Shown one piece after another: positions 1,200-48,026 of a stretch of 48,180 nt of DNA. Source of the stretch: a virus; IMG/VR virus record IMGVR_UViG_3300041405_000291, positions 1-48,180 of that record. One strand, given 5' to 3'. A program made the translations under genes and the position numbers. The notes beneath the pieces were generated by a model. The model was given only the letters and a program-made list of their open reading frames with translations. It made no database searches and was not told where the DNA came from. Position 1 is the first letter of the stretch. Each line of letters begins with the position of its first letter.

Positions 1200-1274
1200 A
1201 TGAATAAAGCCGTCTCCGACCTGTCCTCCCACACTCCGATTGTGCTGGAGTACCTGACAGCTTTGGTTGAATAG
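1200..1274 (+). pseudogene. mutS: Truncated 5' end of native mutS
   Basis: The first 41 bases (1200-1240) encode [13 protein letters not shown] and the first two bases of codon 14, matching the N-terminus of the intact mutS at 45444 ([13 protein letters not shown]). From 1241 the reading frame runs into phage sequence and stops at 1272-1274, giving a 24-residue ORF. This is the bacterial left half of the mutS gene cut by integration. Nine of 41 bases differ from the phage-borne copy, yet only one residue changes (V5I). Confidence 0.9.
1229..1240. other. attL core (CCACACTCCGAT)
   Basis: The 12-bp sequence CCACACTCCGAT occurs here, at the junction of the mutS remnant with phage DNA, and again at 45473-45484 inside intact mutS. 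Joining the two phage sides rebuilds an attP in which TCCAGCCACA and TGTGCTGGA are near-perfect inverted repeats flanking a ~7-bp central CTCCGAT. That is the expected form of core-type integrase sites around an overlap region. Confidence 0.85.
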
Positions 1275-1573
1275 GGCCGAGTTTGCAGGCTTAACCGAGC
1301 ATTCTCGCCCCCTCGCATAAACACATAGCGGGCATTAAATGGCATAGCTTAGCGTATGGTTTGCCCCATTTTTGCCCCATACCCTTCGACGTTCAAACGG
1401 CCCGACTGACGGATTGGGCTTGCTATCGCATCAGCCAGCGTACCATTCCAGCAGCGCAGCGCGTCCTCCTGCACTCCTTGCTTTGCCGACAGCAGCAATG
1501 GTTTCTTTGCCGCCAATCATAAGCGCTGCCGCTGCTATGCTTTAGCGTCTTCTGAAGGAGTGATACTAAAATT
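1275..1573. other. Left phage end, no gene seen
   Basis: About 300 bases between the remnant ORF and the SIR2-like gene. It contains the doubled TTGCCCCAT repeat (1360-1380) that recurs at the right end. A long-spaced Shine-Dalgarno (GAAGGAG) and a TATGCT -10-like hexamer lie just before 1574. No protein-like reading frame was found. Confidence 0.5.
1363..1379. repeat. 17-bp terminal repeat, left copy (candidate integrase arm site)
   Basis: GCCCCATTTTTGCCCCA is identical at 45397-45413 near the other phage end. It is itself a tandem of the half-site TTGCCCCA. The two copies lie ~120 bp inside the left core and ~60 bp inside the right core, where arm-type sites bound by the N-terminal domain of a tyrosine integrase would be expected. 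It is not the crossover core, because the mutS duplication places that elsewhere. Confidence 0.5.
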
Positions 1574-2800
1574 ATGAAAGCCTTATTTATTGGTGCCGGA
1601 GCCTCCTATGATTGTGGCATGCCGCTAGTTTGGGAACTTACGGCAGAGATAAGGCGTTGGATGTCTCCTGAGAAGCTGACTACGCTAAATGAAACTTGGA
1701 AATCTCGAGGCTGCGGATGGAATGATGAGGTGACATGCAGCCTGATTGGCCTTCTAAAGAATGAAAACCTTCACTACGAAAACATCATTGGAGCTATCGA
1801 AGTAGAGTGTTCTAGAGAGCGAAATGAGAAAACTAGGCAAGACTATCACTCAGCTCTCAGCTTTCTCCTTCAATTGGTATACGGCCTACTGCTTGAGAGA
1901 CAAGTCATAAATAATAATTACGCCTTGAGAGCGCTAGATGATTTCAACGGCATAAATGAGCTAGCAACAGAGAACAAACCCTTATGGATATTCTCATTGA
2001 ACCATGATTGCATAGTTGAGATGCTGGCTACAAAAACCAGCATACCTCTGAAGTCGGGGTTCAACGAAAGCATTAGTCTGCACATGAGCGTAGGTAGCGA
2101 TTCATCATATGAAATTGAATTCGAAAAGCTTAGCCGCGAATCCATTACACAGAATGAGTATGATTTCTTTAAGCCTGGCGAATATGGCATCAACCTTATA
2201 AAACTGCATGGGGCACTTGATATATTCGGACAAAATGACGCCCTCGACTATTTAAAAGTAAAACCGACGAGCAACAACCCAGCATCTTACGCAAATCAAC
2301 TCAGGCTAATAACCCAAATAAACCAAGACATCGCCGTGCGAGACGGCGTCATATGTACAAATGAAATCGTATACGAAGACAACGAAGGCAAGATTAATTT
2401 TCTACGTAAAAGCTTACTATCTGGCGCGCACAAATTCTCAAAAAAACTAACTCAGATAGCCCCCTCTGAGTTTCTATCTCTTTTCAAAGGAAGCCTCAAC
2501 TACGCCGATGAGCTCATTTGCATTGGATACAGTTTCGGGGACAACCATATTGACGAACAAATCGCTGAATGGATGTCGTTCTTAAAGTCTCGTAAGCTTT
2601 CGATTATCAATCCAGGCATCAAGTGTGTCCCCGACACGTTTAAACACTTGGCAGGGCAGGTCCAATGTTTTTCTATCGGAGCATCCGACTACTTCTTACA
2701 GCTGAATTCCAGCAAACTCACGACATCCCAGATGGCGCTGCGAGAGATGAGGAAAGAAGCGCGTGAAAAAATCAAGCGCGAATTAATGGGGCATCCGTGA
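1574..2800 (+). CDS. SIR2-like domain protein (defence candidate)
   Basis: 408 aa. Visible SIR2-fold motifs: GAGAS near the N-terminus (residues 7-11), SLNHD (141-145, the position of the SIR2 Asn/Asp pair), KLHGA (210-214, catalytic His 212) and CIGYSFGDNHID (316-327). This is the SIR2_2-like arrangement found in NAD-consuming antiphage proteins (ThsA, DSR, SIR2-STAND families). The C-terminal ~70 residues are charged and not recognised; no second enzymatic domain or membrane segment is seen. It stands alone, rightward, immediately inside attL, with visibly AT-richer codon use than the phage backbone. NAD+ degradation on infection is a family-based inference. The Shine-Dalgarno GAAGGAG lies unusually far (14 nt) from the ATG. 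Confidence 0.8.
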   Translation: MKALFIGAGASYDCGMPLVWELTAEIRRWMSPEKLTTLNETWKSRGCGWNDEVTCSLIGLLKNENLHYENIIGAIEVECSRERNEKTRQDYHSALSFLLQLVYGLLLERQVINNNYALRALDDFNGINELATENKPLWIFSLNHDCIVEMLATKTSIPLKSGFNESISLHMSVGSDSSYEIEFEKLSRESITQNEYDFFKPGEYGINLIKLHGALDIFGQNDALDYLKVKPTSNNPASYANQLRLITQINQDIAVRDGVICTNEIVYEDNEGKINFLRKSLLSGAHKFSKKLTQIAPSEFLSLFKGSLNYADELICIGYSFGDNHIDEQIAEWMSFLKSRKLSIINPGIKCVPDTFKHLAGQVQCFSIGASDYFLQLNSSKLTTSQMALREMRKEAREKIKRELMGHP

Positions 2801-9732: not shown

Positions 9733-10269
9733 TTAGCGAAGAAGCTCGCGGACGTACGCTTGACAGGCCTGCAGCGAAATCAATCCTCGGTCGCCGTCAT
9801 CAGTGATGCCGATAATTCGTTGAGCATGCGCCGGGTCAAGTTCGGCTCTTGTGGGGCCATGAACCACGCTGCCGGTGGCGGTGGTGGCTGACATCGATCC
9901 GTTGGCACCGCCGGTGGTGGCGTCGAGTAGGACTGACAGGCGCAGATCAGCAGTGGCAAGGCGGTCGCGCAGGCGACCTTGATCACGTTGGACATCGCTC
10001 AAAGCTCGGTAATGGGTTTGTTCGCTGGTGGCCAGGCGCTGCTCGAGCGCAAGGCGTTTGTCTTGCTCGGCACGCTGCTGCGCAACCGTGGCCAGGGCCA
10101 ACTGGATAAGGGTTTGAGTGTGGAGTCGGGCCTGCTCTGCGAGCTGTTTGCCGTATCGCCAGTCCTGTAATTGCCACGCGATGGCTGCGGAAGCACCGGC
10201 TAAAACGGCCAGCAGCACACCTTTGGCCACCAGTCGATACGGCGTCGGGATCAGTTCGCCGAGACGCAT
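9733..10269 (-). CDS. Rz-like i-spanin (LysB-type)
   Basis: 178 aa. N-terminal membrane anchor (VAKGVLLAVLAGASAAIAWQ, about residues 14-33) then a long helical periplasmic domain (EQARLHTQTLIQLALATVAQ...). Rz proteins join with an outer membrane lipoprotein (Rz1) to disrupt the outer membrane at lysis. ATG at 10269 has GAGGGCGG upstream and overlaps the endolysin stop by 19 nt. Rz1 is nested in another frame. Confidence 0.8.
   Translation of the reverse strand: MRLGELIPTPYRLVAKGVLLAVLAGASAAIAWQLQDWRYGKQLAEQARLHTQTLIQLALATVAQQRAEQDKRLALEQRLATSEQTHYRALSDVQRDQGRLRDRLATADLRLSVLLDATTGGANGSMSATTATGSVVHGPTRAELDPAHAQRIIGITDDGDRGLISLQACQAYVRELLR
9780..9995 (-). CDS. Rz1-like o-spanin lipoprotein, nested inside Rz
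   Basis: 71 aa in a different frame wholly within the Rz gene. Signal peptide MSNVIKVACATALPLLICAC with lipobox ICAC (Cys20), then proline-rich stretches (STPPPAVP, QPPPPPAAW), the hallmark of Rz1. Nesting of Rz1 within Rz is known from lambda and P2. Confidence 0.8.
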   Translation of the reverse strand: MSNVIKVACATALPLLICACQSYSTPPPAVPTDRCQPPPPPAAWFMAPQEPNLTRRMLNELSASLMTATED

Positions 10270-10814
10270 AACACCGCCCTCGCCCGCCCCCACAATTCCA
10301 GCCGATCCTGCAGACCGTTCAGACCGCCATTGATCCTGCGGGTGATCGTGTTGAATTCGTTTTGATCGGCCAGCGCGTTCAGCCCATTCACGGACCAGAA
10401 CCATGCGGCCGACTCGGCGGCCCACTGCGGCAGCTCCAACAGTTCAGGCGTGCGCAGCAATCGCTCGTCACCGAACAGCGCCAAGCTGCAGCGCAGGTAA
10501 TTATCGTGGCCGGTGACCTGGATCAGACCGCGACCGCGATAGCGCTGGCCATCGCCATCCGCTGCCGGAGTGTTGCCTAATCTCGCTGCCAGATTGCCAG
10601 TGTCGTATTTGCTCAGGTACTGGTCGCCACCCAGTTCCCGGACGTACTGCAGTTGCCCCGACTCGTGACCGACCTGCGCCAGAAACGCGGCTTGCCGTTT
10701 CGGTGTGTTGATCTGCCGGTGCGCCATGGCTGCGTTGAGTGCGGATACAAAAAAGCCCGCTTGGCGGCGGGCGTTGGGCATGATGGTTTGAATCTGCTGC
10801 GTCGTTATCTGCAT
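10251..10814 (-). CDS. GH19 chitinase-like endolysin
   Basis: 187 aa. GH19 features: AFLAQVGHESGQ with the likely catalytic Glu51, RYRGRGLIQVTGHDNY, and ESAAWFW near the C-terminus. Such enzymes cleave peptidoglycan in phage lysis. No signal peptide is seen, so release depends on the holin. It is preceded by a terminator that closes the upstream small gene. Confidence 0.85.
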   Translation of the reverse strand: MQITTQQIQTIMPNARRQAGFFVSALNAAMAHRQINTPKRQAAFLAQVGHESGQLQYVRELGGDQYLSKYDTGNLAARLGNTPAADGDGQRYRGRGLIQVTGHDNYLRCSLALFGDERLLRTPELLELPQWAAESAAWFWSVNGLNALADQNEFNTITRRINGGLNGLQDRLELWGRARAVLCVSAN

Positions 10815-10828
10815 AAATGCTCCAAATG

Positions 10829-10852
10829 AAAAAGCCCGCTTTACGCGGGCTT
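10829..10852 (-). terminator. Intrinsic terminator upstream of the endolysin
   Basis: Leftward stem AAGCCCGC-N5-GCGGGCTT followed by TTTTTC. It ends the small-gene unit at 10874-11026; the late operon must read through it to reach lysis genes. Confidence 0.75.
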
Positions 10853-10873
10853 CTCAGTTAAATGACCTTTCGA

Positions 10874-11026
10874 TCAAAGGGTACATTTCGAGGTGGTAGG
10901 GTGGCGGATCATTTCATGCGCGCATTCTAAGTCAGCATTCCTCTTCTCAACGAATGGCGGCAACGCTGCTGCTGCAAATGCTAGCATCGGCACGAAATAC
11001 AACGTTAGGTACAGTCTTCCAAGCAT
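10874..11026 (-). CDS. Small membrane protein, 50 aa
   Basis: Short gene between the tail gene D and the endolysin. ATG at 11026 has AAAGGTAA upstream. One hydrophobic helix (YLTLYFVPMLAFAAAALPP), then a charged tail with two Cys (LECAHE, SKCTL). An overlapping frame (~11114-10950, containing NYIVFDGTEFGFSLASLKP) also looks protein-like but lacks a good start, so one of the two may be decayed. It could be an accessory lysis protein or moron; not recognised. Confidence 0.5.
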   Translation of the reverse strand: MLGRLYLTLYFVPMLAFAAAALPPFVEKRNADLECAHEMIRHPTTSKCTL

Positions 11027-11145
11027 CACAAGTTACCTTTCTGGTGGGTTTCAGAGACGCTAACGAAAAACCAAACTCCGTGCCATCGAACACGATGTAG
11101 TTACTCGAATGGGGGTTCACTTTCCATACGATCAGGGACGCTTCG

Positions 11146-12195
11146 CTACTGCTTGAGCTGAACGACCTTCAGATCCTTCACCGCTTTTTTCTTCCTGCCT
11201 TGCGCTTTCGCCTTGCCCTTCTTGCCACCGTTGCACTCGACCGTTGTGCTCCAGCCTGACTGGGTGAACACCTGCTCCACCGAATCGACCAGGTATTCAC
11301 CATCGAGACCAATCTTGAACCCTTGGGCATTGATCGATCGCTCGGCGAATAAGTCGGTGCGCCCAGGCATTTCCAAGCGGACCCCGGCCGTAGACCGATT
11401 GAAAGCCGCCAGCCGTGCCTTGGCCGCTTCTTCAGCTGCAGACTTGTTCGGGTAGATATGGCGGTCGGTATGCACCGGCGGCAGGCCGTCCGGTGATTCG
11501 TCGTTGTCGAGAGTGACCACCGCAAGCTTTCCGGTTTTCTTGTCTTGATGCTTGGTCGACACTGCCTTGTGCGTGTTGCGATCACCGAGTCGAAACTGGA
11601 AGCGGCTTACGTCACGCCGCTGGATCAGCAGAACACCAAAGCTCTTGCCCGAAGCGGTCTGCCCGGCTTGACGCGGCATCACCAGCAGCTTGCCGTCGGC
11701 GACCTTGGCTGTGCAGTCGTACTGCTTGGCCAGGCGGGTGATGAAATTGAAATCCGATTCACTCAGTTGGTCAGCGCGCGGCACCTTGGTCTGCACCGCG
11801 CACACCGGTTGCCAGCTGTTGCGTGCGGCGACGTCGGCAATGATCTGTGACAGTGGCACGTTCTCCCAACTGCCGCTGCGGGTGGACTTGCCGCTACCGC
11901 GCATGTCGCTGGCCTTACCGGTGATCACTAGCGTGTCCGGCGGACCGGATAGCTCGATCTCGTCGACGACATAGCGACCCATGCGGGTCAGCGACGTTTC
12001 GACATAACCGAGGAATATCTCAATGCTGGCTCCGCGCGGGGGCAGCACCACAGCACCATCCCGGTCATCGATACGCAGCTCGAATTCATCGGATTCCATG
12101 CCAGGCTTGTCGGTGGTTTTCAGCTGCAGCAGCCGGTCATTGATGAGTGCGGTGATGTCGGCGCCATCTGCCACGACGCGAAAGGCTGGGGTCAT
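11146..12195 (-). CDS. Phage late control gene D protein (tail hub)
   Basis: 349 aa of the P2 gpD/Mu gp44 family, which forms the baseplate hub that holds the spike. Supported by the N-terminal domain (TPAFRVVADGADITALINDR), the central LSESDFNFITRLAKQYDC signature and the lysine-rich tail. ATG at 12195 is preceded by a weak ribosome site. It follows gpU and gpX as in P2, but is separated from them by a moron and terminator. Confidence 0.85.
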   Translation of the reverse strand: MTPAFRVVADGADITALINDRLLQLKTTDKPGMESDEFELRIDDRDGAVVLPPRGASIEIFLGYVETSLTRMGRYVVDEIELSGPPDTLVITGKASDMRGSGKSTRSGSWENVPLSQIIADVAARNSWQPVCAVQTKVPRADQLSESDFNFITRLAKQYDCTAKVADGKLLVMPRQAGQTASGKSFGVLLIQRRDVSRFQFRLGDRNTHKAVSTKHQDKKTGKLAVVTLDNDESPDGLPPVHTDRHIYPNKSAAEEAAKARLAAFNRSTAGVRLEMPGRTDLFAERSINAQGFKIGLDGEYLVDSVEQVFTQSGWSTTVECNGGKKGKAKAQGRKKKAVKDLKVVQLKQ

Positions 12196-12208
12196 TTGTT
12201 TCGTCCAT

Positions 12209-12232
12209 AAAAAAGCCCGCACAGGGCGGGCT
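12209..12232 (-). terminator. Intrinsic terminator between moron and gene D
   Basis: AGCCCGC-N5-GCGGGCT followed by a run of T on the minus strand. The stem and loop are identical to those of the terminator at 22619-22641. Confidence 0.8.
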
Positions 12233-12269
12233 GAGTTGTTTGCGTGTTGCAAGCGAAAGGAAATGCCGA

Positions 12270-12593
12270 TCAGTCGATTTTGATGAGGACCAGGCTGTCT
12301 TCTCGCACAGCCATGCAGCTACCGCACACCGGGCAGGCAAAAACATCTGTCTTGGGGTCTACGGGAAGCGTTTTGGTACAGGCCGGGCAATTACCCACAA
12401 GGAAGTTTTCCCGAAAACCAAAGGTTTTGTAGAGGACTGCGAATACCAATCCCAGTGCCAGGAACCAACCCAATACCGGAATGAAGCACAGAAGAATTGC
12501 ACCAATGGTGCCGAAGATTATCCAGTTCAATCGGTAATTGAATTCACCCCAAAGGCTCCGTTTTACTTTCCTTAACTCTGTCGATCTTTCCAT
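12270..12593 (-). CDS. Membrane protein with zinc-ribbon tail (moron)
   Basis: 107 aa. Hydrophobic region WIIFGTIGAILLCFIPVLGW and ALGLVFAVLY (two helices, about residues 23-56), followed by a rubredoxin-like knuckle pair CPAC...CPVC. It interrupts the conserved X-D tail gene order and is followed by its own terminator, the layout of a moron expressed from the lysogen. Function unknown; a superinfection-exclusion role would be inference. Confidence 0.7.
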   Translation of the reverse strand: MERSTELRKVKRSLWGEFNYRLNWIIFGTIGAILLCFIPVLGWFLALGLVFAVLYKTFGFRENFLVGNCPACTKTLPVDPKTDVFACPVCGSCMAVREDSLVLIKID

Positions 12594-12682
12594 GAGGGGT
12601 CTCTCGCACCTTCCAAAAAAAAGGCGAGGCTATCGACGCTTCAAATCTACGGCAAACTGCCGCCACTGAATGTAAGCACGCT

Positions 12683-12889
12683 TCAGCCCCACAACATCAC
12701 GTCACCATTGCTGGGTGCCGGCAGATCCGGCAACTCAATCACTATGCCGGCGCGGTAAGGCTGCGGCTCGTCAGCCAGTCCCTGATTGGCATCGAGCACC
12801 GCCTCGACAGTCCCCTCAAGATGCCCATAAGCGTGGTAACAAAGGGTATCGAGCAGGTCCCCATCAGACGTTCTGCAGGTCATCGCCAT
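12683..12889 (-). CDS. Tail protein X (LysM-like)
   Basis: 68 aa, matching P2 gpX in size and position. Contains TSDGDLLDTLCYHAYGHLEG, the LysM-like pattern of the family, and ends NGDVMLWG. Start within the gpU 3' end (ATG 12889 with GGAG 9 nt upstream; ATG 12883 also possible). Required for tail completion in P2. Confidence 0.8.
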   Translation of the reverse strand: MAMTCRTSDGDLLDTLCYHAYGHLEGTVEAVLDANQGLADEPQPYRAGIVIELPDLPAPSNGDVMLWG

Positions 12890-13709
12890 AGCGCACGAAC
12901 TCCAAGGTGAACGCCTGCTTGCGCGGGATCCCGCCCTGCAGCAGCGCGCTCTGTTCTTCTTCAACGTTCTTCAGGCACCAAGTGCCCAGTACGTCGCCAT
13001 AACCGGTGGTGAGCGTTAGCGGCCGCAATTGGCTACCGAGACTGCGCAGGGTATCCAGTTGTTTGATGCCGCCTTTGAAGCCCGGAAAAATCGCGCCCTT
13101 CAGGGTGATTTTTTCCTCGCCGATGCCCACCGCCTGTTGCGCCGGTCGACGCGTCAGACGTTCTTGAGACGCCCAGCGAAACTCCGTCGAGCGCCGCAGT
13201 TCATCAAACGCAGCCGTGTCCAGGTTGAAGTAGTACGGCTGCGCGTTGGGATCGAGCGGCTGCACGATCAGCAGGTGCGGAAATGGCTGGACAGCCTCCG
13301 GCAGCGGCGTGGCATTACCGGACAGCGAACCGGTGGGCACTATGTTCGCCAGTGACGGGCTGACCTTGCCGGCGATCTTGTTGATCGCGGTGGACGCCCG
13401 CGCCGCCTGCTCCTTCAGTTCACCCATGCGCTCATCGATTTGCGAGACGGCGCGAGTGGCCTTGTTGTAGGTGGCCACGACCTGACCGACCTTGGCTTGA
13501 GCCGCATTGACGCTGCGCATCACGCGCTGCAGTTTGGCCCCGACCGCTGGCCCCACGATGGGGATGCCTTCCAGCTCGGAGGCCGCGCCGCTGATCTCGC
13601 TGATGGCACCGTTGACCGGTCCCATCATGCCGTCGAGGCTACGGCGTCCGGTCTCCCCCGCTGCCGCCAGATTTTTCAGACCAGACTGCAGCTGTTCCAT
13701 GTAAGCCAT
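12864..13709 (-). CDS. Tail protein U with N-terminal extension
   Basis: 281 aa. The C-terminal ~130 residues match P2 gpU (EKITLKGAIFPGFKGGIKQ; LTLTTGYGDVLGTWCLKNVE; EFVRYGDD). The N-terminal ~150 residues are a helical, Ala-rich extension absent from P2 gpU (159 aa). AAGGAGG precedes the ATG. It sits between the tape measure and X as in P2. Confidence 0.8.
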   Translation of the reverse strand: MAYMEQLQSGLKNLAAAGETGRRSLDGMMGPVNGAISEISGAASELEGIPIVGPAVGAKLQRVMRSVNAAQAKVGQVVATYNKATRAVSQIDERMGELKEQAARASTAINKIAGKVSPSLANIVPTGSLSGNATPLPEAVQPFPHLLIVQPLDPNAQPYYFNLDTAAFDELRRSTEFRWASQERLTRRPAQQAVGIGEEKITLKGAIFPGFKGGIKQLDTLRSLGSQLRPLTLTTGYGDVLGTWCLKNVEEEQSALLQGGIPRKQAFTLEFVRYGDDLQNV

Positions 13710-13718
13710 CGATCCTCC

Positions 13719-16196: not shown

Positions 16197-16233
16197 GTGC
16201 GTGCCTCATGTGTTGGAAAGTGGCAGCGGTGGC

Positions 16234-16657: not shown

Positions 16658-16666
16658 GTTTTATCC

Positions 16667-17170: not shown

Positions 17171-17182
17171 CAGGTGGCCTCC

Positions 17183-18876: not shown

Positions 18877-18878
18877 GG

Positions 18879-32007: not shown

Positions 32008-32099
32008 AAGCCCTCCTTTCAACGGCTTTCAATGCAGACCTTTCAATTTCAATGGATTGAATTTCAGTAAGCTGAGGGTGCTCCCGCTAACAGTTTCCC

Positions 32100-33045: not shown

Positions 33046-33405
33046 TCACGCAGCCAGCCCCATCATCACGCCGAAGATCTGCAGGTGCGCCTCATGCAAA
33101 CGCTGATAGTACGTATCGCGGCCACAACCGCAGTGGGCATACCGCAGGCGCATATCCACATCGAGCGTGCAGTAATGCTCACGCACCACCGTTACCAGCT
33201 CTGGCGCGAGGTGCTTGGTCACAATCAGCTCAATGTCCAACGAACTCTCCAGCGGCGCCCGGAAAGCACGCCGCCCCCTGATCAGTTGCCCGTTGCTCTC
33301 CATCATCATGGCAACCATGTTTCCCCCTGCCAGCCCTCCTTTTGAATGTTCCGAGTGCAGCTCCTGCGCCCACAACCGAAGCAGCGAATCGATCTCCTTA
33401 ATCAA
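33046..33405 (-). CDS. Q-like antiterminator or late regulator
   Basis: 119 aa from a TTG start with GAGGAG upstream; overlaps the primase stop. The C-terminal part (VVREHYCTLDVDMRLRYAHC...YYQRLHEAHLQI) has the sigma-like helix-turn-helix pattern of Q/RinA/ArpU-type late regulators. It is the last gene before the terminator and late operon. Assigned by pattern and place; an alternative is a small unrelated DNA-binding protein. Confidence 0.5.
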   Translation of the reverse strand: MIKEIDSLLRLWAQELHSEHSKGGLAGGNMVAMMMESNGQLIRGRRAFRAPLESSLDIELIVTKHLAPELVTVVREHYCTLDVDMRLRYAHCGCGRDTYYQRLHEAHLQIFGVMMGLAA

Positions 33406-36951: not shown

Positions 36952-37025
36952 ATCAACTTGCGGTTGATGTTATAGCTCAACTGACTATTGCGCAACCTTT
37001 ATGAGACTCTCAACTCATGGTTGAT
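36952..37025. promoter_or_regulatory. cI-cro operator region with three 17-bp dyads
   Basis: ATCAACTTGCGGTTGAT (36952-36968) and CTCAACTCATGGTTGAT (37009-37025, over the cI start codon) share the dyad TCAAC-N5-GTTGA; a half-conserved site lies at 36976-36992. The leftward cro promoter has -10 TATAAC (36974-36969). Overlap of a site with the cI ATG fits autoregulation and a leaderless or very short-leader cI mRNA. Confidence 0.65.
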
Positions 37026-37748
37026 AAAAATTCTCTCCGCGCAGCTTTCAGCGAGCGCCTACACGAAGCTCTCAACGATGCCGGCGTACGTGCCCGTGGT
37101 CGTGGAGTGGATATTCATCGTCAGTTGAAAAGCGTAGGGGTTGATAAAACGACCCAGGCCATCAGCAAATGGCTGAATGGCGAAGCGATGGCTGAGGCGG
37201 ATAGCATGTCGGCCCTCTGCTCATGGCTTGGTGTCAGGCGGGAATGGCTTGAGTATGGGGTTCTCCCGAAAGAGCAGACTGGCCATAGCAACGTTCGCGT
37301 TTTAGCCCCTAGTGACTTGAGCAACGTCAGTGAAATCAATCAGCGCTTTGGCAAAGTCCCATTGATCTCTTGGGTTCAGGCCGGGGCTTGGTGCGAGGCG
37401 ATCTCAAACATAGAGAATTATGATAGTGACTCTTGGTTGTCGTGCCCGGTTCCGATTAGCAACCATGGCTATGCCTTGAAGGTTCTCGGTGACTCAATGA
37501 CTAATCCAGGACCTGGGCGCAGCTACCCAACAGGATGTATTATTTTTGTCGATCCTGAAGCTGAAACAAAGACAGGGGATCGAGTAATTGCCAGAGTGCC
37601 CCGCACAAATGAAGCAACCTTCAAAATATTAGTAGAGGACGCTGGCCGACAATTTCTAAGACCCATCAATCCGCAATATCCAATCATTGACATTACGGAG
37701 GAGACACATATTTGCGGCAAAGTCGTTGGCTCATTCATCCCAGAATAA
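37017..37748 (+). CDS. CI-like repressor (S24 self-cleaving)
   Basis: 243 aa. N-terminal helix-turn-helix (RQLKSVGVDKTTQAISKWLN region), linker, and S24/LexA-type domain with catalytic Ser in LGDSMTNPG and Lys region in VIARVPRTNEATFKIL. Maintains lysogeny and should be cleaved on RecA activation. Sites for it are proposed at 36952-37025 and 39830-39867. Converges with the Septu genes. Confidence 0.88.
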   Translation: MVDKNSLRAAFSERLHEALNDAGVRARGRGVDIHRQLKSVGVDKTTQAISKWLNGEAMAEADSMSALCSWLGVRREWLEYGVLPKEQTGHSNVRVLAPSDLSNVSEINQRFGKVPLISWVQAGAWCEAISNIENYDSDSWLSCPVPISNHGYALKVLGDSMTNPGPGRSYPTGCIIFVDPEAETKTGDRVIARVPRTNEATFKILVEDAGRQFLRPINPQYPIIDITEETHICGKVVGSFIPE

Positions 37749-37765: not shown

Positions 37766-38509
37766 TCACATCATATTTATCATTATTTTAGCTTCGCGAT
37801 ATATTTTGGAGCGCCCTAAAAACCATGAGGCGAAGCCGGAATACTTTTCACTTTCTCGTGCAAGCATCTCAATCCTATCGATCGCCTCACGTATAGAGCG
37901 CAGTCTGTTAGCTTTTTTCTTCAATGTATTTACGCTGTGATAATTCGCGACAGCTTGTTTTAGGGATAGTTCGAAATCGTGGAGACTCACATGAATTTTC
38001 GAACGAGGCTCCCATAACCGCAGAGTATTGAGCCCGCAAACCTCTATAGTTAGCTCGGCAACATCATACGTTGGCCCCGGCCAGCTCTTTACATTCAACC
38101 CTTCGTAATAAAAATAATGAGCAGGATCTAAATCATAAGGATTGACTATAGGCTCTTTACCTGTATCGTGATCGTCTTTATTCCCATTGCAACGCCTACA
38201 CGCTGGCAATAAATTTAACCATTCAAAGGTTTGGTCTGGATAAATTGATTTTGGTTTAAAATGTTCAACCTCAACATTCCCACCCTCTGACGGAATGCAT
38301 TCGCAGAACGTACATTTCCCATTGGAAGAACGAGTAAGTTCTGACTTGACATCCTTGTGCCGGTAAGGAGCTATTAACAGCTCCTTTTCTTTTTCCGGAA
38401 TATTCTTATAAGAACCATGAACATCAATCGCCTCTTTCAGCTTCCGAGTCAACTCGACTTTATTATTTTTCAAATATTCTGGCTCAGTTCCTCTATTAAG
38501 CTTAATCAT
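37766..38509 (-). CDS. ptuB: Septu HNH endonuclease PtuB
   Basis: 247 aa. HNH fold with zinc knuckles: CTFC (Cys66, Cys69), EHFKPKS (Glu82-His83), WLNLLPACRRCNGNK (Asn99, Cys104, Cys107, Lys111). This is the PtuB/TIGR02646-type arrangement. ATG at 38509 overlaps the ptuA stop, so the two are translationally coupled. With PtuA it forms the Septu defence system, an ATPase-nuclease complex that attacks phage nucleic acids on infection. No reverse transcriptase is nearby, so it is Septu rather than retron Ec78. Confidence 0.85.
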   Translation of the reverse strand: MIKLNRGTEPEYLKNNKVELTRKLKEAIDVHGSYKNIPEKEKELLIAPYRHKDVKSELTRSSNGKCTFCECIPSEGGNVEVEHFKPKSIYPDQTFEWLNLLPACRRCNGNKDDHDTGKEPIVNPYDLDPAHYFYYEGLNVKSWPGPTYDVAELTIEVCGLNTLRLWEPRSKIHVSLHDFELSLKQAVANYHSVNTLKKKANRLRSIREAIDRIEMLARESEKYSGFASWFLGRSKIYREAKIMINMM

Positions 38510-39740
38510 CCTTAAGAGCCACCAGAGATGCAAGTTTAGCCTTTAGCACGATCACTATAGTATCGCTTGGATGTGCTACTCTCTCTAGGCTAGCGATAGC
38601 CTCCTCCAACGCTCCCAGGTCTCTCTCTTCTGCCTTAGAAATAGCCGCACCAATTAGACGTTGATAATCCTTATTTTCTAAGCTTTTAACATCCATAACA
38701 TCGGTCAGAATCTGATCAGTTGACCATCCTGAATATAATTGATCAGATGACGTTATTTCGCCGCCCACTGCGTTTGCAGGCATGATTAGTACTTCATTCT
38801 CTTTAGCAGACGCAAGCAAGTGGGGCGAATGCGTTGTAACAATAAATTGCAGCTTAGGAAAAAGTTTTAACAACCCATCGCGCAACGTAAATTGCCACTC
38901 AGGATGAAGATGCAGATCCAGCTCATCGATCAATACCGTTCCACTTGCAGTAGCCGCCAAACGGTTTGACTGACTAGTTGTTTCCACCCATTCAAATATC
39001 ATCACAATTATGGTAAAAACCGCTTGAAACCCAGAAGAAAGTTCTTCTAAATAACACCGTCTCCCATAGATAGAAAATATTGGCTCTAGATCTCGACCGA
39101 TCTCAATAAACTTAAAATCGCTACCATCAGGACCAATGTATTGAAGCGCATCTGTAAACCTAGAAAAATTTTCTCGCTCTACAGCCGCCCAATCCTTGTC
39201 AATAATAAAATACCTATTAACGAGCCATTGCTTAATATCTCCTGCCCATTCGCCATGCAAAGACTTTACGCTGTTTTTCCGGTAGGTCTTAATAGCATCT
39301 TCAACAGGTAACTCCCTTGCCACACCCTCTATCAACTTATACCTAATACTCCGATTTGCACCAATAAATAAAGGCGAAAGTGACTCGGCGCGATCCTCGT
39401 ACGTTTTAATGTACTGCCGCCCCTCTTCAACGGAAACCCCTTGATTTCCTATTTTAAAACTGCCTTTTCGATATCCGCCACTTAAAGAGTTCTTTCCCAA
39501 ACCGATTCTTAATTTGTCGTCCCCATCCACCATATCTATCCACATGACAGATTGTTCACTAACTGTCGAATATCCGACGCCAGACACGTCAAAACAGTGA
39601 GCTATGCACACCAAGACTGAAGTTTTTCCACAACCATTAGGTCCAGCGATGAAATTAAAGCTCGGGCCAAACTCAATATTAAGAGTTTCAAACTTCCTGA
39701 CATTTTCTACGTGAAGCTTTTCTAAATATCTGACTGACAT
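38502..39740 (-). CDS. ptuA: Septu ATPase PtuA
   Basis: 412 aa SMC/ABC-like ATPase: Walker A AGPNGCGKTS (32-41), ABC-type signature ELSSGFQ (233-239), Walker B VLIDELDLHLHP (269-280), and switch His in TTHSPH. AAGGA lies before ATG 39740. AT-richer than the phage backbone, consistent with acquisition as a cassette. It lies between cI and the early promoter, divergent from the latter. Confidence 0.88.
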   Translation of the reverse strand: MSVRYLEKLHVENVRKFETLNIEFGPSFNFIAGPNGCGKTSVLVCIAHCFDVSGVGYSTVSEQSVMWIDMVDGDDKLRIGLGKNSLSGGYRKGSFKIGNQGVSVEEGRQYIKTYEDRAESLSPLFIGANRSIRYKLIEGVARELPVEDAIKTYRKNSVKSLHGEWAGDIKQWLVNRYFIIDKDWAAVERENFSRFTDALQYIGPDGSDFKFIEIGRDLEPIFSIYGRRCYLEELSSGFQAVFTIIVMIFEWVETTSQSNRLAATASGTVLIDELDLHLHPEWQFTLRDGLLKLFPKLQFIVTTHSPHLLASAKENEVLIMPANAVGGEITSSDQLYSGWSTDQILTDVMDVKSLENKDYQRLIGAAISKAEERDLGALEEAIASLERVAHPSDTIVIVLKAKLASLVALKDD

Positions 39741-39829
39741 TGCTGTTCCTTGCAAGCTGGATGCATCGATAGCCAATAATGATTGTTCACAAGGCAGAAA
39801 GCCACTGCCATAAGGAGCCCAACAGAAAC

Positions 39830-41960: not shown

Positions 41961-42571
41961 GCGAAATCCGTCCCCAATCCAGCACCCACCGCAACCCGGC
42001 TAACGCCCCATCAGCGGCTGATGCACCAACGCGCACTCAAATTTCGGAGGAAAGCGGCATGCAAATGGACCAGCACGACACCCAATCCACGACCGCTTTG
42101 CTCCGCAAGGAAACCAGCGTCGACATACTAGAAACAAACAGTCTCTGCTGCGCAGCAGCAGGCATTATTGTTCCTTGCAGCAGCTCCACCGAGGCACTTA
42201 TACCCCACGTAAAGCTGCGCGAGGCAGCGACACCCAATGCCACGCTAAACGCTCAGAATCGCCCGCCCGCGCAGCTTGCGGAGGGGTATAAGCACCCCGT
42301 TTGCGCCTCCGAACGCCCCGAAAAAATTGCCGCCAACAAGGTGCAGATCAACGAGCGCGCCGAGTTCGAAAAAGAGTTCCCAGTGCCCGAAGGTCTGCAG
42401 TACTGCACACAGCGAGGCACGTACATCACCGCACCAGGCGCGAATACATCCGACTCATTCGCCCGTGAGCATTACGCGTACCGGGCCGGCTTCGCCGCTT
42501 GGAGTCGCAGAGCGTGGAAGCATGCCGCGCTAGTTGCTCAGCAAGAAGGGACGTGCCCATGCAGCCTCTAA
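41957..42571 (+). CDS. Hypothetical protein, 204 aa
   Basis: Ser/Thr/Ala-rich, disordered-looking N-terminal half; C-terminal domain FEKEFPVPEGLQYCTQRGTY ... YAYRAGFAAWSRRAW looks folded and conserved in type. Translation coupled to the preceding gene. Unknown. Confidence 0.6.
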   Translation: MSEIRPQSSTHRNPANAPSAADAPTRTQISEESGMQMDQHDTQSTTALLRKETSVDILETNSLCCAAAGIIVPCSSSTEALIPHVKLREAATPNATLNAQNRPPAQLAEGYKHPVCASERPEKIAANKVQINERAEFEKEFPVPEGLQYCTQRGTYITAPGANTSDSFAREHYAYRAGFAAWSRRAWKHAALVAQQEGTCPCSL

Positions 42572-42608
42572 CATTCGTCCTGCACTTGATGCTACGGGAG
42601 ACACAATC

Positions 42609-42806
42609 ATGAGCCTCCCTCGCTGGGTGATGATCAACCGAGCCTCCGAACTCACTGGATATAGCGAAGACGCAATTCGCCACAAGGTTAAAAACGGCAC
42701 GTGGGCTCAAGGCAGGGTCTGGCGCAAGACGCCAGACGGCCGAATCGCAATCAACATGACGGAGTATGACAAGTGGGCCGAGAGCGCACCGCAGCAAGCG
42801 GCCTAG
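42609..42806 (+). CDS. Excisionase-like protein (Xis)
   Basis: 65 aa. PRWVMINRASELTGYSEDAI RHKVKNGTW, then VWRKTPDGRIAINMTEYDKW: a MerR/excisionase winged-helix typical of Xis beside tyrosine integrases. Overlaps the integrase start. Would direct excision and so restore native mutS. Confidence 0.8.
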   Translation: MSLPRWVMINRASELTGYSEDAIRHKVKNGTWAQGRVWRKTPDGRIAINMTEYDKWAESAPQQAA

Positions 42807-44032
42807 AGGCAGAGCTGGCCAAACACAAAGGGATTGAGATACACGGCGGAAGCATTCGCGTCGTATTCATGTGGCGGCGAATTCGCTGCCGCGAAACCCT
42901 TGGCTTGCCCGTGACCAAAGCCAACGTCAAGCATGCCGCCCTACTCAGGGCGGCAATTCTTCACGAGATCAAGACAGGGCATTTTGAGTACGGTCGCCAC
43001 TTCCCAAACTCAAAAAATGCGACGAACTACACGGCCGTAAAAGACGAGCGGATCGGGGCGCTGCTTGCGCGTTACAAACCGCTGAAGGCTGTCGACATCA
43101 CTCCAATGACCGAAGAAAAGTACGGCTATGCATTGGATATCTGCGCTGAATTGCTAGGCTCGGATCGCTTGGTGGGCATCCTGCTACCCGAAGATATCCA
43201 ACGACTGAGAACCCAATTGATCGCCACCAGGGCGCCGTCGACGGCGAACCATTACCTGGCGACTTTCGCCGGCTTCTTAGCGTGGTGTGAAGACAACAGA
43301 TATTGCCGTGAGGGGTTGGCGGCGGCCTGCGTCCGTTTCGCAATGATCGGACGCGAACCAGATCCTCTGACGAAAGCAGAGTTCGACCAGTTGATAAATA
43401 AGGGCTGTTTACACGTTCAGGATTCGGCTGCGATCACACTCGCCGTTTACACAGGACTTAGACCCGGAGAATTATGCGGGCTGGCGGTGGAGGATATTGA
43501 CCTGGCGTCCGGGCAGCTACACATTACCAGAGCGATCACTGCAGACGGCACCTTCAAAGTCCCCAAAACTGGTAAGCCCCGCACCGTATTTTTGATGCCA
43601 CCAGCCCTCGATGCTTGCAAAAGCCTTATCGGTCTCGTTGAAAACCATGAACCGAGGACTATCGAGATTTATATGAATCGGCATGAGAGCAGGCAGGAAA
43701 CGGTAACGCCATTGCTGTCTCCGACCACGCAGGCTCGAAAGAAAATCATCAATCACTGGTACGTCCCGACATCATGGAATACCAAATGGGCCGCCGTACA
43801 AAAACGCTCTGAGATACGCCCGCGCCGGCCCTATCAGACCAGACATACATATGCATGCTGGTGCCTGACTGCGCGTGGCAATTTGGCGTTCATTGCGAAA
43901 CAGATGGGACACAAAGACTTCACTATGCTAGTTGAGGTATATGCAAAATGGATGGATGACGAATCCCCTTCCGAGCTAAAAAATATATGGTCGGCACTGA
44001 CAAAACAGTTCAAGGCACCATCCCTTTATTAA
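42773..44032 (+). CDS. Phage integrase (tyrosine recombinase)
   Basis: 419 aa from GTG 42773. N-terminal arm-binding region, SAM-like core-binding domain, catalytic domain with Arg in YTGLRPGELCGL, His-x-x-Arg in QTRHTYACW, GH in QMGHKDF, and Tyr in VEVYAKWM. Full-length and intact. Lies ~1.4 kb from attR because the PIN gene intervenes. Its last 23 bp overlap that convergent gene. Confidence 0.92.
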   Translation: MGRERTAASGLEAELAKHKGIEIHGGSIRVVFMWRRIRCRETLGLPVTKANVKHAALLRAAILHEIKTGHFEYGRHFPNSKNATNYTAVKDERIGALLARYKPLKAVDITPMTEEKYGYALDICAELLGSDRLVGILLPEDIQRLRTQLIATRAPSTANHYLATFAGFLAWCEDNRYCREGLAAACVRFAMIGREPDPLTKAEFDQLINKGCLHVQDSAAITLAVYTGLRPGELCGLAVEDIDLASGQLHITRAITADGTFKVPKTGKPRTVFLMPPALDACKSLIGLVENHEPRTIEIYMNRHESRQETVTPLLSPTTQARKKIINHWYVPTSWNTKWAAVQKRSEIRPRRPYQTRHTYACWCLTARGNLAFIAKQMGHKDFTMLVEVYAKWMDDESPSELKNIWSALTKQFKAPSLY

Positions 44033-45263
44033 AACCCTCATTTATCATCTTTATAGAGTCCGCCGCTGATCGAGTTAAGCGTTCGCGGCGTACTCTCTCA
44101 AGCTCAACCTCCACCATTTCACGCATTGAATCCATACTTCGAATCGCGTCAACACAACGCTTATAAGATTCCTCTTCAGAATCAATATTGAGCGCGATCA
44201 GGCCTGCACGAATACTTGCCAGAGACTGCAATTCCTTTTTCATCTCAAGCAATGATAAAACAAGCGCTTCCTCCCTCTCCCTGAGGCTACTATCAGTATC
44301 CTTTACCCAACCCAAAGTCTTATCAAAAAACCATTTACCGGGAAAGCTCGGACAATCTGATTTTATCGCATAGAGCATATTTTCTTGATCATCCACGCGA
44401 ATATCACGAATCTCTTTAACGGCTTCCTCAGAGTCATCCTGGTTTAGGTATTCGCTTGCCCTTTCTAGAAACCTATCGGGAGAGTACATATAAAAAGATG
44501 AACCAACGACAGATAAAAACTCCTCTTTTAGCTTCGGCTGTGGCCCAAGAGTCTTACCCTGAAATGTATACCACCAATCTTCCTTTGCATCACCCGTCAC
44601 AAAGATCACCGGCTTTTGGTCAGCTTTTGCTTTATCGAGAATTTGTAGCCAGACTATATAGTCGCCATAAGGCCTACACCTTTCATCAAAAATTATTGAA
44701 TCAGAGGCTTTTTTCACATCACAAAAACCCGGTGGAATTTTTTGCTCATATCGCTCCTGACCATCCTTTAGAATCCGCTCTAACTGAGCGCGCTCAAAAG
44801 CCTGACCAACTTTCCCATCAAACAATACCCCTAACTTATCCTTGATCTCATCCGAATTTATTCGCTTGTCATGAACACGTTTATTCTCATTTAACTCAGA
44901 TGAGAGCCGAGCGAACAAAGCTGAACTTTCAGTGAGAGTGGCCTCACTAACAAAAGGATGCTGATTGTGACTCTCTAAACTTTTCTTTAGAGCTTCAACC
45001 TTCTTGACCGCATCATCATATATCTTTCCCTGCTCACCAATCACGGCTAGTCGGTTATTTAGGTATTCGAACGCTACTTGATGAGGTATCCAAAGTCGCT
45101 CACCCAACGCCTCGAATACATCAAGCAGCTTCGCACAAGTGAGATCAGAGTATCGATAAAGATTGAGCAGAACATTAGCATCCAAGACAAAAATACAGTC
45201 GCCCCACATTTGATCGATATCATCGATTTGAGTCGAAAAAAAACCTGGGAATTCCGTTTTCAT
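44010..45263 (-). CDS. PIN-like domain protein (defence candidate)
   Basis: 417 aa. N-terminal PIN-like fold: IFVLDANVLLNLYRYSD (Asp28 as metal ligand), YLNNRLAVIGEQGKIYDDA, then DYIVWLQILDKAKADQKPVI FVTGDAKEDWW, the DUF4935/PIN_8-like pattern of putative RNases. The C-terminal third is coiled coil. ATG 45263 (GGAG upstream) preferred to 45281. AT-rich, placed between integrase and attR, a usual spot for acquired cargo. No antitoxin partner seen. Confidence 0.75.
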   Translation of the reverse strand: MKTEFPGFFSTQIDDIDQMWGDCIFVLDANVLLNLYRYSDLTCAKLLDVFEALGERLWIPHQVAFEYLNNRLAVIGEQGKIYDDAVKKVEALKKSLESHNQHPFVSEATLTESSALFARLSSELNENKRVHDKRINSDEIKDKLGVLFDGKVGQAFERAQLERILKDGQERYEQKIPPGFCDVKKASDSIIFDERCRPYGDYIVWLQILDKAKADQKPVIFVTGDAKEDWWYTFQGKTLGPQPKLKEEFLSVVGSSFYMYSPDRFLERASEYLNQDDSEEAVKEIRDIRVDDQENMLYAIKSDCPSFPGKWFFDKTLGWVKDTDSSLREREEALVLSLLEMKKELQSLASIRAGLIALNIDSEEESYKRCVDAIRSMDSMREMVEVELERVRRERLTRSAADSIKMINEGFNKGMVP

Positions 45264-45443
45264 TGTTTGCTCCGGCCTCATAGTGGTGGCAGGGTGGTGG
45301 CGTCACACTCAACATAGTCCCGACTGGCATTCCCCACCACCCCCTATGTTAACCTCGTTCTATTCGGTGGAATTTTGGCAAGCAACACGCGCCACCGCCC
45401 CATTTTTGCCCCACACCTCTACCAGAATCACTCTAAGACATTG
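45264..45443. promoter_or_regulatory. Phage-supplied mutS upstream region
   Basis: 180 bases between the divergent PIN gene and the mutS ATG. Holds GGGTGGTGG (45292-45300) with its complement CCACCACCC (45334-45342), a weak -10-like TATGTT (45345-45350) without a good -35, the 17-bp terminal repeat, and only AAGA as ribosome site. mutS must be expressed from here or by read-through. Confidence 0.45.
45397..45413. repeat. 17-bp terminal repeat, right copy
   Basis: GCCCCATTTTTGCCCCA, identical to 1363-1379. Lies 30 bases before the phage-borne mutS start codon, so integrase binding and mutS leader overlap. Confidence 0.5.
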
Positions 45444-48026
45444 ATGAATAAAGCAATTTCAGATTTATCCAGCCACACTCCGATGATGCAGCAATACTGG
45501 CGCCTGAAGAATCAGCATCCGGACCAGCTGATGTTTTATCGCATGGGCGATTTCTACGAAATCTTCTACGAAGATGCGAAGAAAGCCGCCAAGTTGCTGG
45601 ACATCACCCTGACCGCGCGCGGGCAGTCGGCGGGACAGGCGATTCCGATGTGTGGGATTCCTTACCACGCGGCGGAAGGTTACCTGGCGAAACTGGTCAA
45701 GCTCGGCGAGTCGGTGGTGATTTGCGAGCAGGTCGGCGACCCGGCCACCAGCAAAGGCCCGGTGGAGCGTCAAGTCGTACGGATCATCACGCCGGGGACG
45801 GTCAGTGACGAAGCGTTACTCGATGAACGCCGCGATAACCTGATCGCAGCTGTATTGGGCGATGAGCGCCTGTTCGGTCTGGCGGTGCTGGACATCACCA
45901 GCGGCAACTTCACCGTGCTAGAGATCAAAGGCTGGGAAAACCTGCTGGCAGAACTGGAGCGGGTGAATCCGGTTGAGCTGCTGATTCCGGATGACTGGCC
46001 TAAAGACCTGCCGGCGGAGAAACGCCGTGGCGTACGTCGTCGTGCGCCGTGGGACTTTGAGCGTGACTCGGCGTTGAAAAGTCTCTGCCAGCAGTTTTCC
46101 ACTCAAGACCTGAAAGGCTTCGGCTGCGAAAACCTGACCCTGGCCATCGGCGCTGCCGGCTGCCTGCTGGCCTACGCCAAAGAGACCCAGCGCACCGCCC
46201 TGCCCCACTTGCGCAGCCTGCGTCACGAACGTCTCGATGACACCGTGGTGCTCGACGGCGCCAGCCGGCGCAATCTGGAACTCGACACCAATCTGGCCGG
46301 TGGCCGCGACAACACGCTGCAATCGGTGGTCGATCGTTGCCAGACCGCCATGGGCAGCCGTTTGCTGACTCGTTGGCTGAACCGGCCGTTGCGCGACCTC
46401 ACAGTGCTGCTGGCACGCCAGACGTCGATTCGCTGCCTGCTCGACGGCTACCGTTTTGAAAAGCTGCAACCGCAGCTCAAGGAAATCGGCGACATCGAGC
46501 GGATCCTGGCGCGAATCGGCCTGCGTAATGCGCGACCACGTGACCTTGCGCGTCTGCGTGACGCTCTCGGCGCACTGCCCGAACTGCAAGTGGCGATGAC
46601 CGATCTGGAAGCGCCGCACCTGCAGCATCTGGCGGCCACCACCAGCACCTATCCAGAACTGGCGGCGCTGCTGGCAAAAGCCATTATCGACAACCCGCCT
46701 GCGGTGATCCGCGACGGCGGCGTGCTGAAAACCGGTTACGACAGTGAACTCGACGAACTGCAATCGCTGAGCGAAAACGCCGGCCAGTTCCTCATCGATC
46801 TGGAAGCCCGGGAGAAGGCCCGTACTGGTCTGGCCAATCTAAAAGTTGGCTACAACCGTATCCACGGCTACTTCATCGAACTGCCGAGCAAGCAGGCTGA
46901 ATCGGCGCCGGCCGACTACATCCGCCGGCAGACGCTCAAAGGCGCCGAGCGTTTCATCACGCCCGAGCTGAAAGAATTCGAAGACAAGGCGCTGTCGGCC
47001 AAGAGTCGCGCGCTGGCTCGGGAAAAAATGCTTTATGAGGCGCTGCTCGAAGACTTGATCAGCCAGTTGCCGCCGTTGCAGGACACCGCCGGCGCCTTGG
47101 CCGAGCTGGATGTGCTGAGCAACCTTGCCGAGCGTGCCTTGAACCTCGACCTTAACTGCCCGCGTTTCGTCAGCGAGCCGTGCATGCGCATCACCCAGGG
47201 TCGTCACCCGGTAGTCGAGCAAGTGCTGACCACGCCGTTCGTGGCCAACGACCTGAGCCTGGACGACAATACGCGCATGCTGGTCATCACCGGCCCGAAC
47301 ATGGGCGGTAAATCCACTTACATGCGGCAAACCGCTTTGATCGTGTTGCTGGCGCATATCGGAAGTTTCGTGCCGGCCGCCAGTTGCGAGTTATCGCTGG
47401 TCGACCGCATCTTCACCCGTATCGGCTCAAGCGATGATCTGGCCGGCGGTCGCTCGACCTTCATGGTCGAGATGAGCGAAACCGCCAACATCCTGCATAA
47501 CGCGACCGAGCGCAGTCTGGTGCTGATGGACGAAGTCGGGCGCGGTACCAGCACCTTTGACGGTCTGTCGCTGGCGTGGGCGGCGGCCGAGCGCTTGGCT
47601 CATCTGCGCGCCTACACCCTGTTCGCCACGCACTATTTTGAACTGACCGTGCTGCCCGAAGCCGAACCTCTTGTAGCTAACGTGCACCTCAACGCTACCG
47701 AGCACAACGAACGGATCGTGTTCCTGCACCACGTTCTGCCTGGGCCGGCCAGCCAGAGCTACGGCTTGGCAGTCGCGCAACTGGCCGGCGTGCCGAGCGA
47801 AGTAATCTTGCGCGCGCGCGAGCATCTGAGCCGTCTGGAAGACACCGCCCTGCCGCACGAGGCGCCGAAACCGGCAGCGAAGGGCAAGCCGTCGACACCG
47901 CAGCAAAGCGATATGTTCGCCTCGCTGCCACATCCGGTGCTCGATGAGTTGGCCAAGGTCGATCTGGACGACATGACGCCACGTCGAGCGCTGGAAATGC
48001 TCTATGCACTGAAGAACCGGATATAA
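45444..48026 (+). CDS. mutS: DNA mismatch repair protein MutS
   Basis: 860 aa, normal length. Mismatch-binding motif GDFYEIF (Phe37, Glu39), clamp and lever domains, Walker [10 protein letters not shown], Walker [17 protein letters not shown], and C-terminal [16 protein letters not shown]. The ATG at 45444 matches the native N-terminus; an upstream in-frame TTG at 45375 lies in phage DNA and is not needed. The first 41 bases are phage-borne and were swapped in by integration; the native 5' end remains at 1200. Confidence 0.95.
45473..45484. other. attR core (CCACACTCCGAT)
   Basis: Identical 12 bases to attL at 1229-1240, lying in codons 10-14 of intact mutS. Upstream is phage, downstream is host mutS. 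Confidence 0.85.

Follow-up and report, generated by a model that had tools for sequence, protein, structure and literature searches.

A prophage seated in the 5' end of mutS

We analysed a 48,180-nt stretch of viral DNA, IMG/VR record IMGVR_UViG_3300041405_000291, positions 1 to 48,180 (hereafter the window), which is a virus record without an attached host genome. Between two copies of a short putative core, the window contains a contractile-tailed temperate prophage of ~44.2 kb with int and xis genes, seated in the 5' end of the mismatch-repair gene mutS. Genes for terminase, portal, capsid, sheath, baseplate, repressor, Int and Xis, as expected of a phage of this type, were all found, with the assignment of each made from profile matches only. 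Both xis and int are located near the right end of the element, and int is oriented towards mutS. The features directly involved are:

1..1199, no strand: host left flank, with 86.4-96.8% identity to 13 relatives with an empty site
1200..1274, + strand: stranded host mutS start (attL), an open reading frame (ORF) which stops after 24 codons; the same 41 bp open the uninterrupted mutS of relatives
1229..1240, + strand: left copy of the core, CCACACTCCGAT, identical in both copies
42534..42806, + strand: excisionase (phrog_539, E=4.8e-14), overlapping int
42773..44032, + strand: tyrosine integrase of 419 aa, hereafter type I (Arm-DNA-bind_2 and Phage_integrase)
45444..48026, + strand: intact mutS, 860 aa, an uninterrupted ORF from the ATG at 45444 with a phage-supplied start
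45444..45472, + strand: phage-borne replacement start codons of mutS, from comparison of the two copies
45473..45484, + strand: right copy of the core, CCACACTCCGAT (attR), identical in both copies

Starting from the ATG at position 1200, the stub (1200-1274) encodes host MutS residues followed by the phage-encoded sequence IVLEYLTALVE and a stop codon. The translation start of the window's mutS comes from the element, and the reading frame is rebuilt in the integrated gene. The first 41 bases of the host and phage copies differ at nine positions, changing six codons, five of them synonymously and the sixth resulting in V5I, and the first 30 bases of the phage copy have a G+C content of 30%, versus 53% in the host copy. 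The 12 bp shared by both copies, which form the putative crossover core, take in the last base of codon 10 through codon 14 and cover the codons of HTPM, so the insertion falls in the HTPMMQQ codons of mutS.

An earlier note on this DNA had placed a prophage within mutS, with the host start stranded at 1200-1240 and the intact gene at 45444 using a phage 5' end. The stub ORF confirms the first of these and the uninterrupted 860-aa ORF the second, while the coordinates and counts of the note (nine differences in 41 bases, V5I as the sole residue change) were right. Its statement that the first 14 codons are replaced holds for codons 1 to about 10 and fails beyond these, where the end of codon 10 through codon 14 is the shared core.

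Empty sites and junctions in relatives

A genus scan covered 398 genomes, and 13 genomes with a single match were picked as element-free relatives. Twelve of these are identical to the window's host copy over the 41 bases, with one base different in the remaining relative (L174). In all 13 the host start reads directly into MMQQYW, and the orphaned upstream start of the window matches the mutS of each of these relatives. When the window flanks (600 bp each) were joined at the core, the resulting sequence was colinear with all 13 (87.8-96.3% identity), with 12 alignments reaching query base 1200 and one ending at base 1129, the end of the available sequence; from these alignments, the duplicated mutS start is not a chance occurrence. 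The earlier note had named the lack of a joined 1200-1240 plus 45485 sequence in prophage-free relatives as evidence that would speak against it, and this joined site was present in all 13 relatives examined.

The integrase search gave 103 loci, consisting of 73 from virus contigs and 30 from named genomes (27 titled Pseudomonas), and in 84 of these mutS is located downstream in frame. Four of the 19 loci without downstream mutS, all on metagenome contigs (L012, L015, L017 and L069), have an attP-type junction, in which the phage mutS start is followed by P' sequence, with int on one side, homologues of genes from the left end of the window (lysis, methylase or tail) on the other side, and an arm-like pair 121-134 bp past the core. 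One of the four, L069, contains a second P'-type junction 4.2 kb away (L069:5444 and L069:9616), and the first of its junctions adjoins an integrase with just 26% identity to type I, which may point to a further integrase type or to elements in series. The other loci without downstream mutS are a variant in an isolate genome (L066), where phage genes flank the junction, the core is followed by GATG and an arm-like pair is lacking at that place, a locus where the sequence ends at the core (L087), and 13 loci without attR, two of which (L029 and L070) have a host-like stub. The joined site in the 13 relatives and the attP-type junctions in virus contigs of relatives support the prediction of the earlier note that excision would restore the original gene. 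An excision scar or frameshift, as in the mutS element of V. splendidus 12B01, is not expected from the joined window flanks.

Both junctions were compared in 26 genomes, comprising 25 of the 30 named-genome loci and G063 from the genus scan; the five named-genome loci outside the stub comparison were G012 (stub at a contig end), G016, G017 and G029 (no stub match) and L085. mutS was in frame at all 26 junctions as well as in the window, giving 27 lysogens in all, and the core is directly followed by TGTG in 25 of the 27 attL sites (24 of the 26 genomes and the window), with GATG present in G018 and G028.

Anatomy of the attachment site

The phage starts of the 84 loci and the window gave 79 distinct sequences, and these were used together with the attL sites to define further putative elements of the attachment site:

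1241..1252, + strand: putative P' half-site, TGTGCTGGAGTA, directly after the core and resembling host GATGCAGCAGTA
1363..1379, + strand: putative P' arm sites, GCCCCATTTTTGCCCCA, with a paired repeat at the matching place in 25 of 27 attL sites
45397..45413, + strand: putative P arm sites, GCCCCATTTTTGCCCCA, at -47 to -31 from the ATG and conserved in the 79 distinct junctions

In the 79 junctions, a paired repeat of the form GCCCCA-5 bp-GCCCCA is located 31-47 bp before the phage ATG, with near-invariant central bases. At the left ends, the repeats begin 120-122 and 131-133 bp past the core in the same 25 attL sites, the exceptions being L156 with one repeat only and L158 with none. We infer that these repeats may be the integrase arm sites, and the MutS start codons would then sit between the P arm and the core.

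Within individual lysogens, the wobble positions of the core match between the phage and host copies in 75 of 81 cells (49.9 in shuffled pairs) and the codon 10 wobble position in 53 of 81 cells (31.6 in shuffled pairs), while for the wobble positions of codons 5-8 this is 202 of 324 versus 190.9, a value reached by 0.9% of shuffles, all of these statistics ignoring host relatedness. The matching in the core, set against the near-shuffled values for codons 5-8, indicates that the core follows the host, with the codons upstream of it belonging largely to the phage. Phage starts almost always have ATT as codon 5 (window 45456-45458), whereas the other third positions are free, and they hardly ever depart from TAA at -10 to -8 or from TG at -2/-1, which suggests that some constraint at the DNA or RNA level is also present.

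Selection on the phage-borne codons

Among the 79 starts, the diversity at positions 1, 2 and 3 of codons 2-9 is 0.16, 0.11 and 0.40, respectively, versus 0.62 and 0.71 in noncoding upstream stretches. Parsimony on a tree of 74 integrases (the 85 junctions less six with an incomplete integrase and five duplicates) gave totals of 44, 24 and 120 changes at the three positions of these codons, corresponding to 5.5, 3.0 and 15.0 changes per site versus 25.2 per noncoding site. Codon 8 holds half (22) of the first-position changes and encodes Leu (62 of the 79 starts), Phe (14) or Ile (three). There were no stop codons in mutS at any of the 84 loci over the sequence covered, which was 300 codons in 61 loci and included complete ORFs of 859-863 aa in 56. 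The spacing from ATG to core is constant in 78 of the 79 distinct junctions, with the ATG one codon further upstream in L059.

This pattern argues that the phage-borne codons outside the core are under purifying selection at the protein level, and the third-position bias in codons 2-9 and the absence of stops agree with the suggestion of the earlier note that the phage segment is kept by selection to rebuild MutS. Many junctions together show that selection for a host protein can act on a phage attachment site, with the phage keeping codons which are of no use to itself except in the lysogen. It is extremely improbable that the duplicated start is instead a by-product of chance, with host DNA captured together with the core and no selection for MutS: a short shared core is sufficient for such integrases, and the bases in or next to the core do follow the host's own, but such capture does not account for the three-base periodicity, the constant spacing, the absence of stops or the recoding via synonymous Ser and Leu codons. 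Alternatively, the segment could be conserved mainly as DNA, for binding of integrase or host factors or for the structure of the start region, with the peptide as a side effect. The near-invariant TAA and TG, the arm repeats and the ATT at codon 5 are consistent with this explanation, but changes are frequent at the third positions of codons 6, 7 and 8 and at the codon 8 first position and few at second positions, and we consider it very unlikely as the main cause of conservation. Constraint at the DNA level probably acts together with coding selection.

Gene-restoring integration and the question of a switch

The window most probably contains a temperate contractile-tailed phage that uses the mutS start as attB and carries a recoded MutS start in its attP, with integration being gene-restoring and near-neutral rather than a switch. 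The integrase would take the first mutS codons as attB, and in attP the recoded MutS start would be located between the P-arm integrase sites and the 12-bp core. Crossover in the core would leave the host start behind in a short, dead ORF and fuse the phage start in frame to the remaining mutS, while excision by Int and Xis would restore the host mutS exactly. Selection on the MutS protein would maintain the phage start, with the lysogen keeping mismatch repair, and phages with a faithful start may be favoured because lysogens without MutS would be mutators. The anatomy of the element, attB, the attP-type junctions in relatives, the reading frame and the selection can all be read from the sequence. 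The scheme further supposes action of the integrase at these sites, active excision in this strain and adequate expression of MutS from phage DNA, as well as the reason given here for selection.

Several observations weigh against this interpretation. An attP-type junction on a contig could also arise between two prophages in series (compare L069). The encoded peptide shows some variation, with 30 different 13-residue starts among the 79, that of the window being the commonest (27/79), and in the 10 host/phage pairs with comparable starts 33 of the 49 differing codons are synonymous, with only 1 of 5 in G009. Hosts with the MutS start MSDLSAHTP gain residues from the phage start. Third-position changes are unevenly spread over the codons, with two at codon 5 and 28 each at codons 6 and 8, indicating that part of the segment is likely to be constrained at the nucleotide level as well. 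Neither leader showed a sigma-70-type promoter in simple consensus scans, nor a terminator when scanned for one. Lastly, the phage starts are predicted to pair less with the anti-Shine-Dalgarno sequence than the host starts (-0.5 vs -1.7, p 0.017), in a comparison of 26 of the 27 host/phage pairs from which G010 was dropped as no in-frame ATG was found in it. In the same pairs the phage starts are also predicted to fold less, with a mean of -3.5 versus -5.9 kcal/mol in the host starts (Wilcoxon p 0.002; G021, G022 and G027 were kept despite an implausible choice of upstream ATG), and weaker folding together with weaker pairing gives no prediction of relative expression.

The earlier note had interpreted the locus as a reversible mismatch-repair switch, i.e. 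mutS would be moved between two promoters, with the mutation rate following the state of the phage as with the SpyCI islands in mutL. The leader does change between the integrated and excised states, as the DNA upstream of the rebuilt mutS is phage-borne, and from its position integration may swap the promoter. Moreover, int ends -1 to +51 bp from the mutS ATG in 25 of the 85 type I junctions (in four of these, L099 and L102-L104, with a partial int only), and there transcription of mutS should start within int or upstream of int. In the other 60 junctions there is 0.8-4.4 kb between int and mutS, and in the window int ends 1.4 kb from mutS. Four of the junctions (L060, L074, L092 and L100) have an int stop codon which overlaps the mutS ATG (TGATG), an arrangement in which translation of host mutS could be coupled to that of phage int.

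These features would fit a switch, and the V. splendidus 12B01 element, as described by Chu et al., shows that a mutS element can alter the mutation rate (PMC5296598). What argues against a switch is that MutS is encoded in frame in both states, and that purifying selection on the phage codons points to constancy. Furthermore, excision of a full temperate phage normally ends in lysis. Signs of silencing of the type described for mutL or of a 2-bp scar of the 12B01 type were not seen in the sequence, and the analogy with S. pyogenes mutL has the wrong sign, since the islands there are reported to block mutL transcription (PMC3430984, PMC4689407). An adaptive switch is therefore quite unlikely, and that part of the earlier note was not supported. 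Under gene-restoring integration the expression of mutS could still differ between the integrated and excised states, and such a difference in expression was proposed by Chu et al. for the P. putida F1, E. coli 536 and B. multivorans CF2 elements (PMC5296598).

Different integrases at the same mutS codons

Type I integrases (E below 1e-60) were found in 23 of the 398 genus-scan genomes, which is a lower bound, and in 22 of these the integrase lies beside a mutS start. No mutS was found within 3.8 kb downstream of the integrase in G080 (57% identical), and G220 has a type I-looking start with no type I integrase within the 2.2 kb examined. We re-examined 26 genus-scan genomes, 24 of which had two or more matches, and nine of these, again a lower bound for the 398 genomes, contain a different (type II) element with an integrase of ~330 aa and a start that is either a longer MutS-like form or MDLSSHTP. 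Both types are present in G372, where the two type II integrase copies appear damaged. At G372:C1 (L198, L192, L193 and L210), several prophage junctions are located in series inside mutS, comprising a host stub, a pair of type II starts that both run into P'-type sequence, and a type I start that is fused to mutS.

L182 has a type II integrase (L182:2608-3600) with 100% identity to the integrase of phage phiAH14a, which was obtained from Pseudomonas sp. ANT_H14 by mitomycin C induction (PMC4936722). In the phiAH14a record KU708004 (L207:5048-5110), MutS start codons are present just beyond int, forming a mutS-type attP. The terms mutS, attP and attB do not occur in the main text of the phiAH14a paper (PMC4936722), and this attP is apparently unreported so far.

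In the E. coli 536 element, one junction reads MSTIENFDAHTPMMH followed by a stop and the other junction has a MutS start. The integrase ORF of this element (249 aa) has Arm-DNA-bind_3 and central-domain matches, with no match to the catalytic domain. BLAST comparisons among the type I, type II and E. coli 536 integrases gave no meaningful similarity (lowest E-value 0.41), with the E. coli 536 integrase comparable over its N-terminal part only. Both types I and II match Pfam Phage_integrase and thus belong, at a distance, to one superfamily. The mutS codons targeted by type I are also used by a second Pseudomonas integrase (that of phiAH14a) which looks unrelated to it, and the E. coli 536 integrase probably represents a third lineage at these codons. 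A broader proposal, which we regard as doubtful, is that prophages have convergently come to use the mutS start as a harbour, with an attP re-encoding the MutS N-terminus evolved separately in at least two Pseudomonas integrase lineages of no recognisable similarity and probably in a third in E. coli 536, and with the host mutation rate coupled to int in those type I elements where int runs or overlaps into mutS. If true, the level of mismatch repair in the host would be coupled to phage int transcription, and the mutation rate would follow the prophage state without loss of the protein. The question whether mutS prophages change the mutation rate becomes testable in inducible phages such as phiAH14a.

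Cargo slot and other genes of the prophage

The element has profile matches to terminase, portal, protease, major capsid, tape measure, tail sheath, baseplate, fibre, endolysin, primase/helicase and S24 repressor proteins. The remaining features of the window are:

253-1023, - strand: LexA/PrtR-type repressor gene (Peptidase_S24 and HTH_3), upstream of and divergent from mutS
1574..2800, + strand: SIR2-like cargo gene directly inside the left end (PADLOC SIR2, E=1.9e-14)
7556-8227: second integrase-like ORF (phrog_216, E=2.9e-16)
10251..32022, - strand: endolysin, tail, tape measure, sheath, fibre, baseplate, head, portal and terminase genes (profile matches)
33398..35614, - strand: primase/helicase (profile matches)
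37017..37748, + strand: S24-type phage repressor (profile matches)
37766..39776, - strand: Septu defence pair (PADLOC), adjoining the phage repressor
37766-38533, - strand: PtuB of the Septu pair (E=1.3e-102)
38502-39776, - strand: PtuA of the Septu pair (PADLOC, E=1.5e-177)
41118-41435: second excisionase-like ORF (phrog_1300, E=6.3e-27), besides the one overlapping int
44010..45281, - strand: PIN_8-domain cargo gene (E=4.1e-65) in the slot between int and attR

The content of this int-attR slot is variable. Of the 60 junctions with spacing between int and mutS, 58 have at least one ORF of 150 aa or more there, and 83 of the 89 slot ORFs of this size are oriented away from mutS. They form 30 BLAST clusters, the largest of which has 21 members, and both members of this cluster that were tested by Pfam match PIN_8. 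Annotation of slot proteins using Pfam on 18 of the 30 cluster representatives and PADLOC on 16 type I slot proteins gave, besides PIN_8, PARIS-like AriA/AriB, an LmuA-like protein and a weak RT-protease match, with most having no match. Some type II elements also have a slot, one of which holds a Zeta-toxin-like gene.

The SIR2-like gene gave no match with Pfam, and the integrase-like ORF at 7556-8227 adjoins a DNA methyltransferase gene at 8348-9151. No named phage is close to the window, with the best matches covering at most 14% of the query at 71-79% identity, and the nearest integrases among named phages are from two Aeromonas phages. The mutS-cinA region has been described as a tailocin site in P. 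fluorescens (PMC2647930), and with the PrtR-like repressor gene located upstream of mutS, the prophage thus adjoins a second phage-derived locus.

Comparison with known systems

The closest precedent is formed by the mutS elements of Chu et al. 2017 (mBio, PMC5296598), which the earlier note did not name. In that paper, mobile elements were described in the HTPMMQQ motif of MutS, including one in P. putida F1, using as search criterion an integrase related to that of V. splendidus 12B01 within 300 bp of mutS. Scarless excision was reported in P. putida F1, E. coli 536 and B. multivorans CF2, and excision leaving a 2-bp scar in V. splendidus 12B01 (PMC5296598). The window element resembles these in the target gene and motif, in the host start being orphaned upstream, and in the element supplying the start and upstream region. 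Unlike the V. splendidus 12B01 element, no scar is expected for the window element, and unlike the E. coli 536 element, its integrase has no detectable BLAST similarity to the 249-aa ORF and points towards mutS, whereas the E. coli 536 integrase points away from it. Phage phiAH14a (KU708004) shares a packaged phage genome with MutS start codons in attP beside int, but has a shorter start and a type II integrase without BLAST similarity to type I.

The SpyCI islands of S. pyogenes are likewise phage-like elements at the 5' end of a mismatch-repair gene, in this case mutL, where integration is reported to block transcription and give a mutator phenotype (PMC3430984, PMC4689407). They differ in silencing mutL, whereas the window element rebuilds MutS. 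In SpyCIM5, a promoter inside int is described as driving mutL (PMC3430984), which can serve as a model for the int-mutS arrangement in the 25 of 85 junctions where int abuts mutS. Insertion into the 5' end of a conserved gene is also shared with the dusA integrases and islands, which according to Farrugia et al. 2015 replace the 5' end of the gene and may restore its function (PMC4482086). The dusA islands have another target gene and no link with mismatch repair. Insertion of SXT into prfC restores the prfC 5' end. The SXT/R391 integrative and conjugative elements (PMC2654960, PMC2791158) resemble the window element in targeting a conserved gene at its 5' end by means of a tyrosine recombinase, but these are conjugative elements rather than phages and use a different gene.

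The principle, the motif and a Pseudomonas example have thus been known since 2017 (PMC5296598), and no later work on mutS-targeting phage families was found in the open-licence literature, in which type I phages were not searched by name. New, as far as this literature goes, are the selection statistics, the attP anatomy, the attP-type junctions, the attP of phiAH14a, the second integrase lineage and the cargo slot. This extends the 2017 finding on mutS to a family of Pseudomonas phages, with what appear to be separate integrase lineages at the same codons.

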